DNA of 64,000 nt from Catellatospora methionotrophica (lineage in GTDB: Bacteria; Actinomycetota; Actinomycetes; Mycobacteriales; Micromonosporaceae): the NCBI RefSeq assembly GCF_011297335.1, contig NZ_JAAOTJ010000017.1, positions 1 through 64,000 on the forward strand, written 5' to 3'. The notes beneath the pieces were generated by a model. It searched no databases. It worked only from the letters and a program-made list of their open reading frames with translations, and was not told the DNA's origin. The translations under genes were made by a program, and so were the position numbers. Below, one piece after another: positions 1-63,453 of the stretch. The stretch's first letter is position 1. Each line of letters begins with the position of its first letter.

Positions 1-40
1 ACCCACCCCGCCCCGCCTCGCCCCCGGCCTGGCCACCTGC

Positions 41-103
41 CGCAACTCTTAAAGAGTCGCGGGCTCATGACGGCTTTGAGGCCGCGACTCTTCAAGAGTT
101 GCG
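41..103. repeat. 63-bp dispersed inverted element, copy 1
   Basis: Left arm 41-61 and right arm 83-103 are reverse complements over 21 bp with one mismatch (T to C at 93), around a 21-bp spacer (62-82). Each arm is itself a near-palindrome with core ACTCTTAAAGAGT (right: ACTCTTCAAGAGT). A C-rich stretch lies to the left (1-38) and a G-rich one to the right (104-133). It sits beyond the 3' end of the LPXTG protein gene. Three more copies are at 13118, 51409 and 62680. Function unknown. Confidence 0.9.
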
Positions 104-170: not shown

Positions 171-1385
171 TCAGACCTCGGTCATGTTCAGGCGGCGGCG
201 GCGCGCCAGCATGAAGACGGCGAAGCCGATGGCCACCAGGGCCAGGCCCGAGATCACGAAGGTCGTGACGTTGGTGCCGGTCCGGGGGAGGGTCGGCGGG
301 GCGGAGGGGGAGACCGACGGCGACGGCGTCGGCGTCGGGCACTCCTTGGCCTCGGCCTGGTACTCGTCGATCTTGACGCCGTTCTCGAAGACCTCGATCT
401 TCGTGGCGGCGGCCTTCGGCACGGTCACCTTGACCGGGTCCTCGCCCGGCTGGATGGTGATCTTCTCGCTGGTGAAGCCGCCCGCGCCCTTGACCTCGAA
501 CACGGCCGCCTTGGTGGCGTCCTTGGCGTTCATCAGGGTGACGGTGGCGACGCCGGTGCAGTCCGAGGCGAACACGGCCGACGGCTTCGGCGCGTTCTTC
601 ACGCAGGTGCCCTCGAACGCGACGACGCGCGACTGGGTGTCGGCCGAGCCGGTCCAGTTCAGGCGGATCTTCAGGCGCGCAGCGGTGGCGTTGCCAGGCA
701 CGGCCTGGGTGGCCTGGACCGTGCCGCCGCCCGGGATGCTGACGTCGCCGTGCAGGCCGACCACGCTGGCCAGGTCGGTCAGCGGCTGCCAGTTGTCGGT
801 GCCGAACTCGATCGCCGAGAACTTCGGGTCGTTCGGGTTGGCGGCCTGGTTGATGATCGTGACCTTGGCCGGGTCGGTGTAGTGCTTGTTGATCGCGGCC
901 CAGGAGACCTTCCAGTTGCCGGTCTCGGTGTCACACGCGGCCTGACCGGTGAGGTCGGCCTTGTAGTTGCCGCACTCGGACTTGTCGAGGGCGATGTGGC
1001 CCGCGTTGGTCTGGGTGACGTTGTTGGTCCACTTGCCGAAGACGGTGAGGTCGGCGGTGGTGGTGTCCAGGCTGACGCGCTGCTCGCCGACGAGCTTGCC
1101 CAGCTTGTTACCGGTCTTGCCGGGCAGGGTGGCACCGTCGACGATGTTCGTGATCGCGGTGTCGGGCGACGACTTGTCGTCCACGACGTCGATCACGGCG
1201 CTCAACTTGGTGTCCCAGTTCTCGACGGTCCAAGTGATGATCCACTCGTTCGGCGTGCACTTCGCCTTGGCGGTGACCGTGGTGTGGTGCGCCTGGGCGG
1301 GGCTCGCCAGAACGGCGACGCCCGCGAGGCCGAGCAGCACACTGCCGGAGTAGGCGGCCAAGCGGTGCAGGAGGGGGCTCTTCAC
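171..1385 (-). CDS. LPXTG-anchored secreted cell-surface protein
   Basis: 404 residues, GTG start at 1385 with GGAG five bases upstream. Residues 1-32 form a Sec signal peptide ending AQA. The body is Thr/Val-rich and looks like beta-sandwich repeats. Next come a Pro/Ser/Thr wall-spanning stretch, LPRTG at 366-370, a hydrophobic helix and an RRRR tail. This is the classic sorting signal for a class E/C-type sortase, which would link the threonine to peptidoglycan or a pilin. No sortase gene is nearby. The body is not recognised; an adhesin or coat role is possible but unproven. A TAGGGT hexamer at 1443-1448 (minus strand) may be its -10 box. The gene is divergent from rsmD. Confidence 0.85.
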   Translation of the reverse strand: MKSPLLHRLAAYSGSVLLGLAGVAVLASPAQAHHTTVTAKAKCTPNEWIITWTVENWDTKLSAVIDVVDDKSSPDTAITNIVDGATLPGKTGNKLGKLVGEQRVSLDTTTADLTVFGKWTNNVTQTNAGHIALDKSECGNYKADLTGQAACDTETGNWKVSWAAINKHYTDPAKVTIINQAANPNDPKFSAIEFGTDNWQPLTDLASVVGLHGDVSIPGGGTVQATQAVPGNATAARLKIRLNWTGSADTQSRVVAFEGTCVKNAPKPSAVFASDCTGVATVTLMNAKDATKAAVFEVKGAGGFTSEKITIQPGEDPVKVTVPKAAATKIEVFENGVKIDEYQAEAKECPTPTPSPSVSPSAPPTLPRTGTNVTTFVISGLALVAIGFAVFMLARRRRLNMTEV

Positions 1386-11900: not shown

Positions 11901-12469
11901 TCGCGGCGCTGGAGGAGCGCTACAAGTTCCTCTCCGACCAGCTCGAAGACCTCAAGGCCACCCGCAAGGACCTGCTCACCGTGGTCAAGGACGTCGACGA
12001 CCGCATCCTGGAGGTGTTCGCGACGGCGTTCGAGGACACCGCGCGCGAGTTCCAGGTCGTCTTCCCGATCCTGTTCCCGGGCGGCGAGGGCCGCCTCGTG
12101 CTGACCGACCCGGACAACATGCTCACCACCGGCGTCGAGGTCGAGGCCCGCCCGCCCGGCAAGAAGATCAAGCGGCTGTCGCTGCTGTCGGGTGGCGAGC
12201 GCTCGCTGACCGCCGTGGCGATGCTGTGCGCGATCTTCCGCGCCCGCCCCAGTCCCTTCTACATCATGGACGAGGTGGAGGCGGCGCTCGACGACGTCAA
12301 CCTCGGCCGCCTGATCACCCTGTTCCGGGAGCTGCGCTCGCGCAGTCAGCTGATCATCATCACGCACCAGAAGCGCACCATGGAGGTCGCCGACGCCCTG
12401 TACGGCGTGACCATGCGCAACGGTGTCACCGAAGTGATCAGCCAGCGGCTGAAGGGCGAGTCCGAATGA
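8930..12469 (+). CDS. smc: Chromosome segregation protein SMC
   Basis: 1179 residues, full length. This ATPase with ScpA/ScpB loads at ParB-parS and extrudes DNA loops to compact and separate chromosomes. Walker A GPNGSGKS is at 31-38. Coiled coils flank a hinge near residues 510-650 (LARGGEVPGLLGSVASLL onward). The C-terminal ABC signature LLSGGERSL is near 1085, followed by Walker B FYIMDEVEAALDD and THQKRTME. The GTG start follows CGGAG. It overlaps the HAD gene by four bases (ATGA). The antisense strand carries long open frames, a coding-bias effect. Confidence 0.97.
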   Translation: MHLKSLTVKGFKSFASATTLRLEPGITCVVGPNGSGKSNVVDAISWVLGEQGAKALRGGKMEDVIFAGTSGRQPLGRAEVTLTIDNADGALPIDYTEVSITRRMFRSGESEYEINGDACRLMDIQELLSDSGIGREMHVIVGQGRLDSVLHARPEDRRAFIEEAAGVLKHRKRKEKALRKLDAMQANLNRVTDLTDELRRQLKPLGRQAEVARRAATIQADLRDARLRLLADDLYTLRTTLDREVADEAALRTKRELVEEEYEQVQLRLSALESAHAADAPALTQAQDVWYQLSALQERFRSTAQLAAERHRHLAAPAEEERSGRDPDRLEAEAEAVREQEEALREALTDDQVRLAEAVERRQELERQLAGAERALVAAVKAIADRREGMAKLSGQVNAARTRTATASEEIERLSTAYGDAAMRAEAAQEQVDAVAEQTSDADRDNADLDTAHAVAVAAYEEANAAVKRASDAERAAEKEATGWKAREEALALGLNRKDGAGALLARGGEVPGLLGSVASLLAVEPGCEAALAAALGALADAVAVSGVDEAAEAMRLLKIQDAGRAALLIGTPTPQSRPDVALPSGARWVLDVVRCADTIRPAITSALRDVVLVADLRAASALVAAHPSLRAVTAEGDLVGAFSGAGGSAKAPSYIEVQAAVDEARAKRAAAEESIAVLREEIAETREVATGRKREVDEAAAAKRAAEGERNAAARRLAEVSAGARSAQAEAQRLAASRDKAVAAREQDLAHLTELEERLMAAEAVPVDEDPSTAERDQLAALVPQARQNEVEVRLAVRTAEERVSQIAGRADSLLRQAAAERAARERAAARRAARERGAAVAKAVESGTRDVLNRLNVALEEAAERRDTIAQARTAREAELAQVRNGAKRLGDDLNRLTSEVHRDEVARAEQRMRIEQLETRAAEEFSMDVETLLGEYGPDVPVPVIMLGSADLAEPEPYDRAIQEKRAAKAERDLALLGKVNPLALEEFAALEERYKFLSDQLEDLKATRKDLLTVVKDVDDRILEVFATAFEDTAREFQVVFPILFPGGEGRLVLTDPDNMLTTGVEVEARPPGKKIKRLSLLSGGERSLTAVAMLCAIFRARPSPFYIMDEVEAALDDVNLGRLITLFRELRSRSQLIIITHQKRTMEVADALYGVTMRNGVTEVISQRLKGESE

Positions 12470-13065
12470 GGCGCCGGCCCGCCGAGGCACTGCTGATCGA
12501 CTTCGACGGTGTGCTCCGCCACTTCGACCCCGCGGCGTACGGCGACTTCGAGTCCCGCCATGGCGTCGCGCCCGCGAAGCTGCTGGAGTCGGGGCTGGAA
12601 TGGGCCCGCCAGCTGCCCGCGATCACCGGTCACTGGACCCGGCAGCAGTGGCTGGACGAGATCGCGGCGCACACCGGCGCGTCCGCGGCGGCGCTGACCG
12701 AGTGGGACGCCTACCCCGGCTACGTCGACGAGGCCGTGCTCGGCTTCGTACGCGAGGTGCGCGCCGCCGGGCGCAGGGTCGGCCTGGCCACCAACGCCAC
12801 CGACGACCTGTACGACGACCTGGCCCTGCTCGGCCTGACCGACGAGTTCGACGCGATCGTCTCCTCGGCGGAACTGGGCTTGCACAAGCCGTCGAAGGAG
12901 TTCTTCAAGGCGGCCTGCCTGGCCCTGGAGACCCCCGCCGACCGCTGCCTGTTCCTCGACGACACCGACCGCAACATCCGCGGCGCCCGCGCCGCCGGAC
13001 TGTCCGCGCTCCGCTGGGACGGCCCCGCCGCCCTCCCGTACGCCCGAGCCGCCCTGAACCTCTAA
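12466..13065 (+). CDS. HAD-superfamily hydrolase, subfamily IA
   Basis: 199 residues. Motif I is DFDGVLR, motif II lies in LATNATDDL, the motif III Lys is in HKPSKEFF, and motif IV is FLDDTDRNI. An alpha-helical cap sits between residues 20 and 90. These mark a phosphatase or dehalogenase-like hydrolase; the substrate is unknown. Motif I reads DFDGV rather than DxDGT, a common variant. The ATG overlaps the smc stop (ATGA), so translation is coupled. A 63-bp inverted element lies 52 bases beyond its stop. Confidence 0.88.
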   Translation: MRRRPAEALLIDFDGVLRHFDPAAYGDFESRHGVAPAKLLESGLEWARQLPAITGHWTRQQWLDEIAAHTGASAAALTEWDAYPGYVDEAVLGFVREVRAAGRRVGLATNATDDLYDDLALLGLTDEFDAIVSSAELGLHKPSKEFFKAACLALETPADRCLFLDDTDRNIRGARAAGLSALRWDGPAALPYARAALNL

Positions 13066-13117
13066 CCCCACCCGCCGCGCCCCGCGCACCCCGCGCGCCC
13101 CGCGCCCACCCCCGGGC

Positions 13118-13180
13118 CGCAACTCTTAAAGAGTCGCGCCTTCTTGACTGTCCCCAGGCCGCGACTCTTTAAGAGTTGCG
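13118..13180. repeat. 63-bp dispersed inverted element, copy 2
   Basis: Arms 13118-13138 and 13160-13180 are perfect 21-bp reverse complements, and two more flanking pairs extend the match to 23 bp. The spacer is 21 bp (13139-13159) and differs from copy 1. C-rich DNA lies to the left (13066-13116) and G-rich to the right (13184-13259). It separates the HAD gene from the ABC exporter operon. Confidence 0.92.
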
Positions 13181-13429
13181 GCAGAGGGGGCGTGGCGGGC
13201 GGGCGGGGCGGAGGCGCGGCGCGACGTGGCGGTGGGGGCGGTGGGGTGGGTTGGTGTGAAAGTTTCTCTCGGGATGTGGAATCGGTAAGGGGCGGTGACA
13301 ACCGGATCTCCGTGCTGCGCGTGACTACTACCGGACTCTTGACGATCTCCATGGGCGGCTCTCGGGTAGAGAGCGGTTTCCGGAGATGCGGGGGTGCGCA
13401 CGACCCGATTCGGCGAGGGGAGCGCGGCG
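13181..13429. other. Intergenic region upstream of the ABC exporter
   Basis: No gene is visible. The first 80 bases are G-rich on the plus strand. The second half is less GC-rich and probably holds the exporter promoter (TTGACG at 13339-13344 and TAGAGA at 13367-13372). Their spacing of 22 is too long for a confident call. Confidence 0.4.
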
Positions 13430-14086
13430 ATGTCGTCGTCGCTGGTAGTGGACCGCGTAACGGTGGAGTACACCGCCGGAGCGCCGGTGCTGCGTGACGT
13501 GTCCGTGACGGCCATGGCGGGCCGCATGCTCGCGGTGACCGGCCCGTCCGGCGCGGGTAAGACGACCCTGCTGCGGGCCATGGCGGGTGTGCTGCGCCCG
13601 GTCAGCGGCGCGGTCGCGGTCGACGGCAGACCGCTGAGGGACCGCGACGACGCGGTCGGTCGCCGGGTGGTGCTGATCCCGCAGGACAACGGACTGGCCA
13701 CCATCCTCACCGCGGGTGAGAACGTGCAGGTCGTGCTGGTGGCCAACGGGTTCACCCCGGAGGACGCGCGCCGGGCCACGGCCGAGTCGCTGGAGCACGT
13801 CGGCCTGTCCGCGCAGGCGGGGCAGCTGGTCGAGGAGCTGTCCGGCGGCCAGCAGCAGCGTACGGCGATCGCCCGCGGCCTGGCCCTGTCCGGTGCGGTG
13901 CTGCTGGCCGACGAGGTCACCAGCGAGCTGGACGCGGCCAACCGCGCCCGGGTGCTCGACCTGCTGCGCGCCGAGGCAGACCGGGGCGCCTGCGTCGTGC
14001 TGGCCACCCACGACCTCGAAGCCGCCGCCGCCTGCGACGCCGAACTACACCTGCTCGACGGCGCTGCCGAGCTGGTCCGGGCCTGA
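13430..14086 (+). CDS. ABC transporter ATP-binding protein (MacB/LolD type)
   Basis: 218 residues from ATG at 13430, with GAGGGGAG seven bases upstream. Walker A GPSGAGKT at 38-45, signature LSGGQQQ, Walker B AVLLADEVTSELD and the switch THD are all intact. The short length and FtsX-type permease partners place it in the LolD/MacB exporter class. It is the first gene of an ATPase-permease-permease-ATPase set. It may form a heterodimer with the last gene, whose signature is degenerate. Substrate unknown. Confidence 0.9.
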   Translation: MSSSLVVDRVTVEYTAGAPVLRDVSVTAMAGRMLAVTGPSGAGKTTLLRAMAGVLRPVSGAVAVDGRPLRDRDDAVGRRVVLIPQDNGLATILTAGENVQVVLVANGFTPEDARRATAESLEHVGLSAQAGQLVEELSGGQQQRTAIARGLALSGAVLLADEVTSELDAANRARVLDLLRAEADRGACVVLATHDLEAAAACDAELHLLDGAAELVRA

Positions 14087-51345: not shown

Positions 51346-51408
51346 CCCACCCCACCCACCCCCGCCCCCCCGACCCCCGCCCGGCCTCCGGCCGCCCCGG
51401 CCCAGTGC

Positions 51409-51471
51409 CGCAACTCTTAAAGAGTCGCGGCATCAGCCCTGCCCGGTAGGCGCGACTCTTTAAGAGTTGCG
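51409..51471. repeat. 63-bp dispersed inverted element, copy 3
   Basis: Perfect 21-bp arms (51409-51429 and 51451-51471) and a 21-bp spacer with its own sequence. C-rich to the left (51346-51400), strongly G-rich to the right (51472-51552). It splits pyrH from frr. Confidence 0.92.
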
Positions 51472-51472
51472 A

Positions 51473-51789
51473 CGGGCGGTCGGGGTGGTGGGGGAGGGGT
51501 GGGCTTGTGGGAGGGGTGGGGTGGACGCCTCGCGCGGGGGCGGAGGTGGCGGGCGGTACCCTATGGCCGCGTGACGGACGGGTTCTGGGCGTGGACGGGT
51601 GCGCGGGTGCGGACACGTTCACGCGGTCTCGGACGTGATGCGGGCATCATGCCGCCGTCAGGCGCATGATCGAAGACAGAGCACAGCACGGAGTCAGTGC
51701 CCGGCGACCAGGTCGCCGCGGAACGGGGCCCACAGGCTGCCGCGCCGCCACCGGTCGGACGCGGCACACGATCAGAGACGGAGAAGCCC
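51473..51789. other. Intergenic region upstream of frr
   Basis: No convincing gene. The first 80 bases are G-runs on the plus strand and could form G-quadruplexes. TACCCT at 51557-51562 is a possible -10 box for frr, which would give a leader of about 220 bases. Confidence 0.4.
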
Positions 51790-52347
51790 GTGATCGACGA
51801 CACCCTCCTCGAGGCCGAGGAGAAGATGGACCGGGCGGTCGAGCACGCGAAGGAGGAGTTCGCGGCGATCCGCACCGGCCGGGCCAACGCGGCGATGTTC
51901 TCCCGGATCGTGATCGACTACTACGGCACGCCCACCCCGCTGCCGCAGATGGCGTCGATCGGCGTGCCCGAGCCGCGCATGGTGATCATCAAGCCGTACG
52001 ACGCGTCCCAGCTGGGCGCCATGGAGCGCGCGATCCGTGACTCGGACCTGGGGGTCAACCCCGGCAACGAGGGCACCCAGCTGCGCATCCTCGTGCCGCC
52101 GATGACCGAGGAGCGCCGCCGCGACATGACCAAGGTCGCCCGCGGCAAGGGCGAGGACGCCAAGGTCGCCATCCGCAACGTGCGCCGCAAGGGCAAGGAA
52201 GAACTCGACCGCATCGTCAAGGACGGCGAGGCGGGCGAGGACGACGGGCGCCGGGCGGAGAAGGAGCTCGACGACCTGACCGCCAGGTACACGGCGCAGA
52301 TCGACGAGCTCATCAAGCACAAGGAAGTCGAGCTGCTCGAAGTCTGA
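51790..52347 (+). CDS. frr: Ribosome recycling factor
   Basis: 185 residues from GTG at 51790 with GGAGAAG upstream. With EF-G it splits post-termination ribosomes. [19 protein letters not shown] and [14 protein letters not shown] are diagnostic; the three-helix bundle is complete. Its stop overlaps the cdsA start (TGATG). Confidence 0.96.
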
Positions 52348-62679: not shown

Positions 62680-62742
62680 CGCAACTCTTAAAGAGTCGCG
62701 GCCTCCGAGGCGCTCTTTGGGCACAACTCTTTAAGAGTTGCG
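62680..62742. repeat. 63-bp dispersed inverted element, copy 4
   Basis: Arms 62680-62700 and 62722-62742 pair over 21 bp with two mismatches near the inner end; the spacer is again 21 bp (62701-62721). The right arm encodes the last codons of tetR, and its centre supplies the TAA stop. A shortened half-arm (CGCAACTCGCGG) lies at 62636-62647, with three CCCCCGG repeats between. Confidence 0.9.
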
Positions 62743-63453
62743 GACCGAGGCGGCGGCGGCGGTGGGGGTGGGGTGGACCTGGGCGGCGAAGAAGGCGAGT
62801 TCGGCTTCGAAGAGGGGTTGGGTGTCGGTGGCGGCCCAGGTGAGCTGCCCGAAGAGTTCGGCGGCGAGGATGCCGTAGAGGCGGGTCCAGGAGGTCAGGA
62901 AGACGGCGGTGACCTCGATCGGCAGCTCGCCGTGGGCGGGTAGCGCCCCGGCGAGGCGGTCGAGGTCGACGTGGCCGATGTCGGGAAGCCGACCGGCCTG
63001 CCACAGCTCCAGCATGGGCTGCACGAAGATCTGGCCGAGCTGCGCGCCCGCGCACTGCAGGTCGTCGCACTGCTGGTGGAACTGCTCCACGCCGGGCAGC
63101 GGCGGCCCGAACATCAGGGTCGCCTCGGGCCGGTGGGCCAGCGCCCAGCGCCGCAGCTCGCGCGCCATGACGAGCAGCCGCCGCACCGGATCGGGGTCGC
63201 CGTCGGCGTCGCGGGCGGCCTCGCAGGCGATGCGCACCTCGTTGTGCAGGTCCGTGCACAGCTCGATGACCAGGGCGTCCAGCGCGGGCACGTAGCGGTA
63301 GAGCGCGGCGGCGGTCATCCCCATCTCCCGGGCGATGGCGCGCAGCGAGATCGCCGCCGGGCCGCCCGCGACGAGCTGCGCCCGTGCCAGGTCCTTGATC
63401 TCGGTCAAGGTGCGCTCGCGCAGGCGCTCGCGGCGGTGTGAGGTGTCCGACAT
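62731..63453 (-). CDS. TetR-family transcriptional regulator
   Basis: 240 residues from ATG at 63453 with AAGGGAG five bases upstream. The helix-turn-helix ISLRAIAREMGMTAAALYRYV lies at about 35-55, and the C-terminal part fits the WHG/TetR_C_13 type. It is divergent from the MMPL gene with a 99-base shared control region, so it most likely represses that exporter and itself. The last residues VRNS and the stop codon are encoded by a 63-bp repeat element. Confidence 0.88.
   Translation of the reverse strand: MSDTSHRRERLRERTLTEIKDLARAQLVAGGPAAISLRAIAREMGMTAAALYRYVPALDALVIELCTDLHNEVRIACEAARDADGDPDPVRRLLVMARELRRWALAHRPEATLMFGPPLPGVEQFHQQCDDLQCAGAQLGQIFVQPMLELWQAGRLPDIGHVDLDRLAGALPAHGELPIEVTAVFLTSWTRLYGILAAELFGQLTWAATDTQPLFEAELAFFAAQVHPTPTAAAASVRNS

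Follow-up and report, generated by a model that had tools for sequence, protein, structure and literature searches.

What keeps a short inverted repeat at one length in a Catellatospora chromosome as the sequence between its arms changes? The window, a stretch of 64,000 nucleotides from an 8.39-Mb assembly in 56 contigs, holds four elements that a preliminary description, made from the letters of the stretch, had characterised as nearly identical inverted arms around a spacer of exactly 21 bp, set between genes or at gene ends against a background of about 72% GC. We located all four at the positions reported, each being exactly 63 bp long and composed of a 21-bp arm, a 21-bp spacer, and a 21-bp arm (Table 1), in a window with a G+C content of 72%. 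The left arm is the same in every window copy, and the right arm is altered slightly in copy 1 (the centre base) and copy 4 (two inner bases). With up to two mismatches allowed, the arm palindrome matched the window 16 times (eight arms on both strands), compared with 0.07 matches expected in dinucleotide shuffles. The placement between genes or at gene ends also held, with copy 4 reaching into the end of a predicted gene. The amino-acid-kinase-family gene preceding copy 3 is presumably pyrH, a name read from its place before frr. An ordinary intrinsic-terminator-like hairpin was noted at about 128-150, between copy 1 and the LPXTG-anchor gene. A search of the window against Rfam gave no match at gathering scores, and a tRNA search of the same stretch found none.

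Table 1. Coordinates of the four elements, their neighbouring genes, and the flanks of copies 2 and 3 in the window (G002 and G004 are other genomes of the genus)
Feature	Position	Class	Details
Copy 1	41-103	1	Left arm 41-61, spacer 62-82, right arm 83-103; contig start 40 bp ahead
Gene beside copy 1	171-1385 (minus strand)		Predicted; LPXTG anchor motif; copy 1 on its 3' side
Gene before copy 2	12466-13065		HAD-like hydrolase; stop 52 bp before copy 2
Left flank of copy 2	13066-13117		C-rich; absent at the corresponding site in G002 and G004
Copy 2	13118-13180	1	Left arm 13118-13138, spacer 13139-13159, right arm 13160-13180
Right flank of copy 2	13181-13260 (end approximate)		G-rich
Gene after copy 2	13394-14086		ABC transporter ATPase
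Gene before copy 3	50626-51345		Amino-acid-kinase family; stop 63 bp before copy 3
Left flank of copy 3	51346-51408		C-rich
Copy 3	51409-51471	1	Left arm 51409-51429, spacer 51430-51450, right arm 51451-51471
Right flank of copy 3	51472-51540 (end approximate)		G-rich
Gene after copy 3	51790-52347		frr
Copy 4	62680-62742	1, with two inner right-arm changes	Left arm 62680-62700, spacer 62701-62721, right arm 62722-62742
Gene beside copy 4	62731-63453 (minus strand)		Predicted; TetR family; last 12 bp (3' end) overlapped by copy 4

Census, length, and occurrence among relatives

The preliminary description had proposed scanning the genome and its relatives for arm-N21-arm, and the scan found the constant spacer that it had named as support. 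In the query's own genome (G000), with gaps of 10-40 bp allowed, 37 distinct strict arm pairs were identified (36 found on the forward strand and 35 on the reverse), 36 of them with a 21-bp gap (N21) and one with a 20-bp gap (N20); the random spacer lengths named beforehand as evidence against an element were thus not seen. A looser pattern, consisting of the outer arm halves only with a gap of 20-50, which decayed copies would escape, was found 80 times in G000, 59 in G010, 45 in G002, 18 in G003, 13 in G005, and 9 in G004, and gave no exact match in the other five of the 11 genus genomes scanned. With 80 copies in G000 and six carrier genomes, the other adverse outcome foreseen, confinement to four sites without conservation in sister strains, did not materialise either. 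Relatedness was judged from coaD identity rather than from a tree: coaD is 95-99% identical to that of the query in the six carriers and 83-90% identical in the five non-carriers. The same element occurs in the named relatives Catellatospora vulcania, C. paridis, C. sichuanensis, and C. coxensis. Across the family Micromonosporaceae, 7 of 250 genomes matched, from 2 of 44 genera, the second genus being that of G019, whose matches have variable gaps. In a collection of 84,980 species (one genome each), from which records near the query genome were possibly left out, all 46 matching stretches belonged to Catellatospora, and the viral contigs scanned held no element.

The length of the element proved nearly invariant. 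Among 69 half-arm matches (own-genome loci taken in), 61 measured 63 bp and six measured 62 bp, the remaining two being longer chance matches beside one real copy. Among 135 copy records from several species, 125 were 63 bp and 10 were 62 bp, in a search that allowed 62 to 64 bp only and with some species counted twice (G010/C. vulcania, G003/C. coxensis, and G005/C. sichuanensis). Each of five single arms in the query genome had a decayed partner at N20 or N21, and at loci L166-L185, where one arm is left single, a decayed partner was visible by eye at the same distance; this equation of singlets with doublet remnants covers own-genome loci only. Orthologous elements stay 63 bp long as their distances to adjacent genes vary. 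G010 has an element corresponding to each of the four window copies; G002 and G004 carry none where copies 2 and 3 stand in the window.

Several side observations came from the same material. At the copy 2 site, G003 (L145) has a different sequence, which lengthens the intergenic stretch by about 240 bp relative to the element-free G002, and the non-carriers G007 (L156), G009 (L158), and G008 (L160) hold other inverted repeats after the same gene, those in G007 and G009 having CAAGATCG ends. G019 contains 601 CRACTCTTNAAGAGTYG palindromes; in the 400 kb read (L186-L205), their halves look interchangeable (AAGATCGCCG-, TTAGGAC-, ATAGCAC-), some appear by eye as perfect 41-47-bp palindromes, and recurrent pairs are found at 30, 37-38, and 44 bp. 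The sequence CAAGATCGNCGCAA occurs 18 times in G069 and 17 times in G101 (both strands summed), perhaps marking further repeat families. At least 11 of the 112 contig ends of G000 fall within about 210 bp of an element, compared with about 0.5 expected by a hand estimate (C3, C8, C9 at both ends, C12, C17, C26, C37, C39, C45, and C56; window positions 1-103 are an example), and hairpins or G-rich flanks seem to break the G000 assembly.

Two kinds of interior and the turnover of the spacer

The outer 15 bp (CGCAACTCTTNAAGA and its complement) are common to two classes of element and surround a 33-bp inside. When 102 copies were sorted by the pair at positions 16 and 48, 53 fell into class 1 (G-C), 30 into class 2 (C-G), and 19 were hybrids; shares outside G002 are biased, the later G000 and G003 loci having been taken among the matches listed. 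G002, the most complete set, gave 17 class 1 copies, 17 class 2 copies, and 9 hybrids (n = 43), two of its 45 copies being missing from a sorting that matched no 62-bp copies. In class 1, which includes the window copies, the arms are self-palindromic, and the spacer follows a symmetric consensus whose halves vary about independently. Over 30 own-genome copies, the spacer begins S-C-N-W-C and ends G-W-N-G-S, with a preference for GG at 7-8 and for CC at 14-15. Class 1 interiors displayed no covariation (0.075 vs 0.071 shuffled, with 150 of 500 shuffles as high) in an alignment of 34 hand-chosen sequences, nearly all with perfect arms, in which arm invariance is partly by choice; an earlier spacer covariation test on 30 intact copies likewise found nothing, a result that holds for class 1. 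The class 2 interior scored 0.200 vs 0.091 shuffled, with none of 500 shuffles as high, and 11 of 29 pairs showed changes on both sides. The previous view that spacer sequence is unrelated between copies thus has to be given up: the spacer has a symmetric consensus, is paired and covarying in class 2, and at one locus is the same spacer inverted.

Folding revealed a long hairpin in the MFE fold of all 62 copies examined, with the inner 33 nt reaching a mean of -17.6 kcal/mol compared with -10.3 kcal/mol for shuffled letters. UCUUUAAG, a tail only moderately U-rich, comes after the inner hairpin in most copies (plus strand, 54/62; minus strand, 51/62).

Seven orthologous sets (13 species pairs), four of which are the window loci and three of which were picked for look-alike spacers, differed at 28 of 390 sites in the outer arms, 28 of 156 in the inner arms, and 90 of 273 in the spacers. 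Spacer divergence from G000 amounted to 18% in G002, 36% in G003, and 42% in G010, with outer arms at 6-7%; four-fold sites diverged from G000 by 15-16% in smc, 12-16% in pyrH, and 11-14% in frr. Spacers of the window loci agree at only 11-15 of 21 positions among G000, G003, G010, and G002, which is barely above the level of unrelated loci (mean best agreement 11.2, 95th percentile 15 of 21). The compensatory arm changes named as support in the preliminary description are present: of 25 double changes at facing positions, seven keep Watson-Crick pairing and 18 do not, the seven representing five separate events (positions 11/53, 13/51, 18/46, 29/35, and 30/34). Together with the fixed N21, these changes agree with the earlier suggestion that arm geometry is selected; selection as their cause does not follow, since template switching would also keep arms matched.

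Among 54 orthologous pairs, which are not mutually independent, spacers agreed at 15 or more of 21 positions directly in 16 and in inverted orientation in eight (one pair counting as both), and 31 matched neither way; about 1.5 direct and about 1.5 inverted agreements were expected by chance. Four of the eight inverted pairs represent one locus, and one has a near-palindromic spacer. At the locus with these four pairs (L042/L141), reverse-complementing the C. sichuanensis spacer gives the G002 spacer exactly (21/21). The outer ends are alike, and the asymmetric right end (GAT) and the two flanks run the same way in both species, which places the flip inside the element. Four more loci (B, C, D, and E) agree at 12-16 of 21 positions when inverted, several of them within chance, and are only suggestive of further inversions. 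Spacers were also shared between loci beyond chance, as copying would produce. Three paralogous pairs agree at 25 of 27 spacer and inner-arm bases (column shuffles: mean 0.09, maximum 2 in 200); the members of one pair are 8 kb from each other on the same contig, and the pair L134/L110 shares, by eye, about 10 flanking bases to the left and 13 to the right as well. Template switching at short inverted repeats homogenises arms and inverts spacers in yeast (PMC8604942), and small inversions occur at hairpins in chloroplasts (PMC12928735), as stated in the portions of these reports cited here. Features of this kind are present in Catellatospora, namely arm homogenisation (the five events above) and the one exact spacer inversion. 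Spacer turnover, with 31 of 54 pairs matching neither way, is faster than a template-switch model easily gives.

Placement, flanks, and competing explanations

Nearly all copies lie at 3' gene ends. With gene orientation taken from our own predictions (a codon-usage gene finder written for this analysis) rather than from annotation, the 62 copies of 63 bp examined comprised 27 between convergent genes, 26 in tandem settings, two between divergent genes, and seven at sequence edges, and 24 of the 26 tandem copies were closer to the upstream stop than to the next start. The G002 copies were distributed similarly (26 convergent, 16 tandem, 1 divergent; n = 43), and element-free intergenic regions of at least 60 bp, the control, comprised 47 convergent, 188 tandem, and 91 divergent. 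Left flanks are C-rich and right flanks G-rich regardless of gene direction: in convergent regions, the left C and right G fractions were both 0.63 with an element (n = 17) vs 0.36 and 0.39 without one (n = 47). Of 57 flanks of 100 bp on each side, 35 on the right and 32 on the left held a G4 motif, compared with 11 of 603 control stretches, which were the 100 bp beyond stop codons on the sense strand and may extend into the following gene. The majority columns adjoining the arms read CTGC on the left and GCAG on the right, and flank-to-flank pairing in register was no higher than between unlike copies.

The RAYT profile NF047646 found nothing over its cut-off in the four genomes scanned (G000, G003, G010, and G019), and neither a GTAG nor a CGTC tag was found beside the palindrome in flank columns or arm ends. 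In the scan of the 11 genus genomes (G019 not among them), PF01797 matched in five of six carriers and one of five non-carriers, as 150-157-aa IS200-like frames or broken or partial ones; G010, with its 59 copies, had no match. Seven of the nine PF01797 places (11 loci with duplicates) were checked, and no arms were seen there in loci of 3.2-3.4 kb. Three near-alike 150-aa frames of an IS200-type Y1 transposase in G000 (L084, L089, and L091) have no arms nearby. The uneven spread of Y1 frames across the carriers may leave room for a Y1 helper.

We favour, at a probability of roughly 0.6, a lineage-specific family of REPIN-like (REP-doublet) hairpins without a recognised RAYT. The 63-bp unit would have arisen in, or entered, the ancestor of the six carrier species, and would since have been inherited mostly in place, occasionally copied, along with a few flanking bases, to the 3' end of another gene, and subject to decay. 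Its arms could pair into a hairpin in single-stranded replicating DNA or as RNA, template switching between them could mend arm mismatches and at times flip the spacer in place, and selection would clear copies from promoters and genes. With UCUUUAAG after it on either strand, the hairpin may work as a transcription terminator in both directions, and a putative enzyme or binding protein would read the outer 15 bp. Judged from sequence, the elements probably act as, or are tolerated as, two-way 3'-end hairpins. The C-rich and G-rich flanks with G4 motifs are left unexplained by the REPIN-like model.

The best-placed competitor, which we rate at somewhat under even odds, would make the element mainly a two-way terminator or 3'-end RNA hairpin under direct selection, its outer arms being A-rich and U-rich sides and its C-rich flank possibly a Rho loading tract for either transcript. 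The 3' position and convergent excess, the covariation of class 2, and the inner hairpin (-17.6 vs -10.3 kcal/mol) with UCUUUAAG after it on both strands in most copies are all consistent with such a role. Separate intrinsic terminators, counted with the element cut out, numbered 2 among 25 convergent and none among 26 tandem regions with an element, and 10 among 61 and 15 among 228 in the corresponding element-free regions. They are thus about equally scarce in both settings, and the slight difference, given without a significance test, would lean towards a terminator role; 16 of 53 elements were themselves called terminators on the plus strand. However, a terminator needs neither identical 15-bp ends at 80 loci nor a fixed 63 bp, class 1 interiors lack covariation, copies 2 and 3 are missing at the same sites in close relatives, and copy 1 adjoins the ordinary intrinsic terminator at about 128-150.

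Doubtful in our estimate is a transposase-orphan hairpin family of the Micromonosporaceae, in which a putative enzyme or architectural protein would read the same 15-bp ends around two insides of equal length (one base-paired, the other a dyad), with a spacer flipping in place and C-rich and G-rich quadruplex tracts brought or built on each side. It is unlikely that class 1 represents a pair of protein operators, in which 21-bp arm dyads 42 bp apart on one helix face, together with the symmetric spacer ends, would be read by a dimeric or tetrameric protein for chromosome organisation or as a roadblock. The self-palindromic arms, the symmetric consensus with independent halves, N21 in 36 of 37 pairs, and outer arms that change less than smc four-fold sites (6-7% vs 15-16%) would suit operators, yet a promoter location was not found (2 of 55 copies, and 1 of 43 in G002, lie between divergent genes, and 24 of 26 tandem copies lie closer to the upstream stop), class 2 elements occupy similar sites and retain the outer ends with arms that are not self-palindromic, N20 copies exist, and presence is patchy between close species. 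More improbable still is a MITE of an insertion sequence having the outer 15 bp as its ends, or an element that an IS200-like Y1 transposase mobilises in trans. Mobility of this kind would fit the constant length, the identical ends, the spacers shared along with adjacent flank, the element-free sites, and the IS200-like Y1 frames of five of six carriers and one of five non-carriers; against it, a parent element with the same ends was not met in the loci read, a target duplication was not seen by eye at two element-free sites (where flanks are too variable), the seven Y1 places checked (of nine) lacked arms, and G010 combines 59 copies with no Y1 match. The attC sites of integrons were dropped as a candidate because the arms do not fit their core motif.

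Comparison with known systems

Among the papers listed by literature searches with the letters of the motif, and on Micromonosporaceae and actinobacterial repeats and hairpins, none concerns this family to judge by its title. Two-way intrinsic terminators carry a hairpin and a U-containing tail on both strands and lie between convergent genes. The Catellatospora element resembles them in its hairpin with a tail on both strands and in its convergent genes, and differs in that the same 15-bp ends recur at about 80 loci and the tail is only moderately U-rich.

A REPIN is a REP doublet forming a hairpin, and singlets have been reported as decayed doublets (PMC3116915, in the sections drawn upon). 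Within that partial description, the likeness extends to two inverted arms, conserved ends, a less conserved spacer of preferred length, an extragenic location, many copies, and singlets as decayed doublets. The differences are that the Catellatospora element, found in a genus of Actinomycetota, has no recognised RAYT and no GTAG or CGTC tag, measures 63 bp in all with an almost invariant N21, exists in two architectural classes, and has C-rich and G-rich flanks with G4 motifs. Thus, the anatomy fits that of REPINs, so far as the excerpted sources describe it (PMC3116915, PMC3733652, PMC8266576), and no linked RAYT was recognised in the four genomes scanned. The CGTC-tagged REP dimers are palindromic dimers that, according to the part of the authors' account cited here, apparently have no dedicated transposase (PMC3733652); compared by description only, they share with the present element a palindromic dimer without a recognised transposase, and the present element has no CGTC tag and a narrower length. 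At the inverted repeats of yeast and chloroplasts (PMC8604942, PMC12928735, again as described in part), the spacer flips in place and the arms stay alike, as here, whereas the Catellatospora element is multicopy, bacterial, and fixed in length. The genus offers a natural record of arms kept matched and of a spacer flip. REP doublets are best known alongside RAYT, and about 80 copies of near-fixed length in genomes without a recognised RAYT, together with the 59 copies of G010 and the 601 palindromes of G019, would make other means of spreading and keeping hairpins testable.
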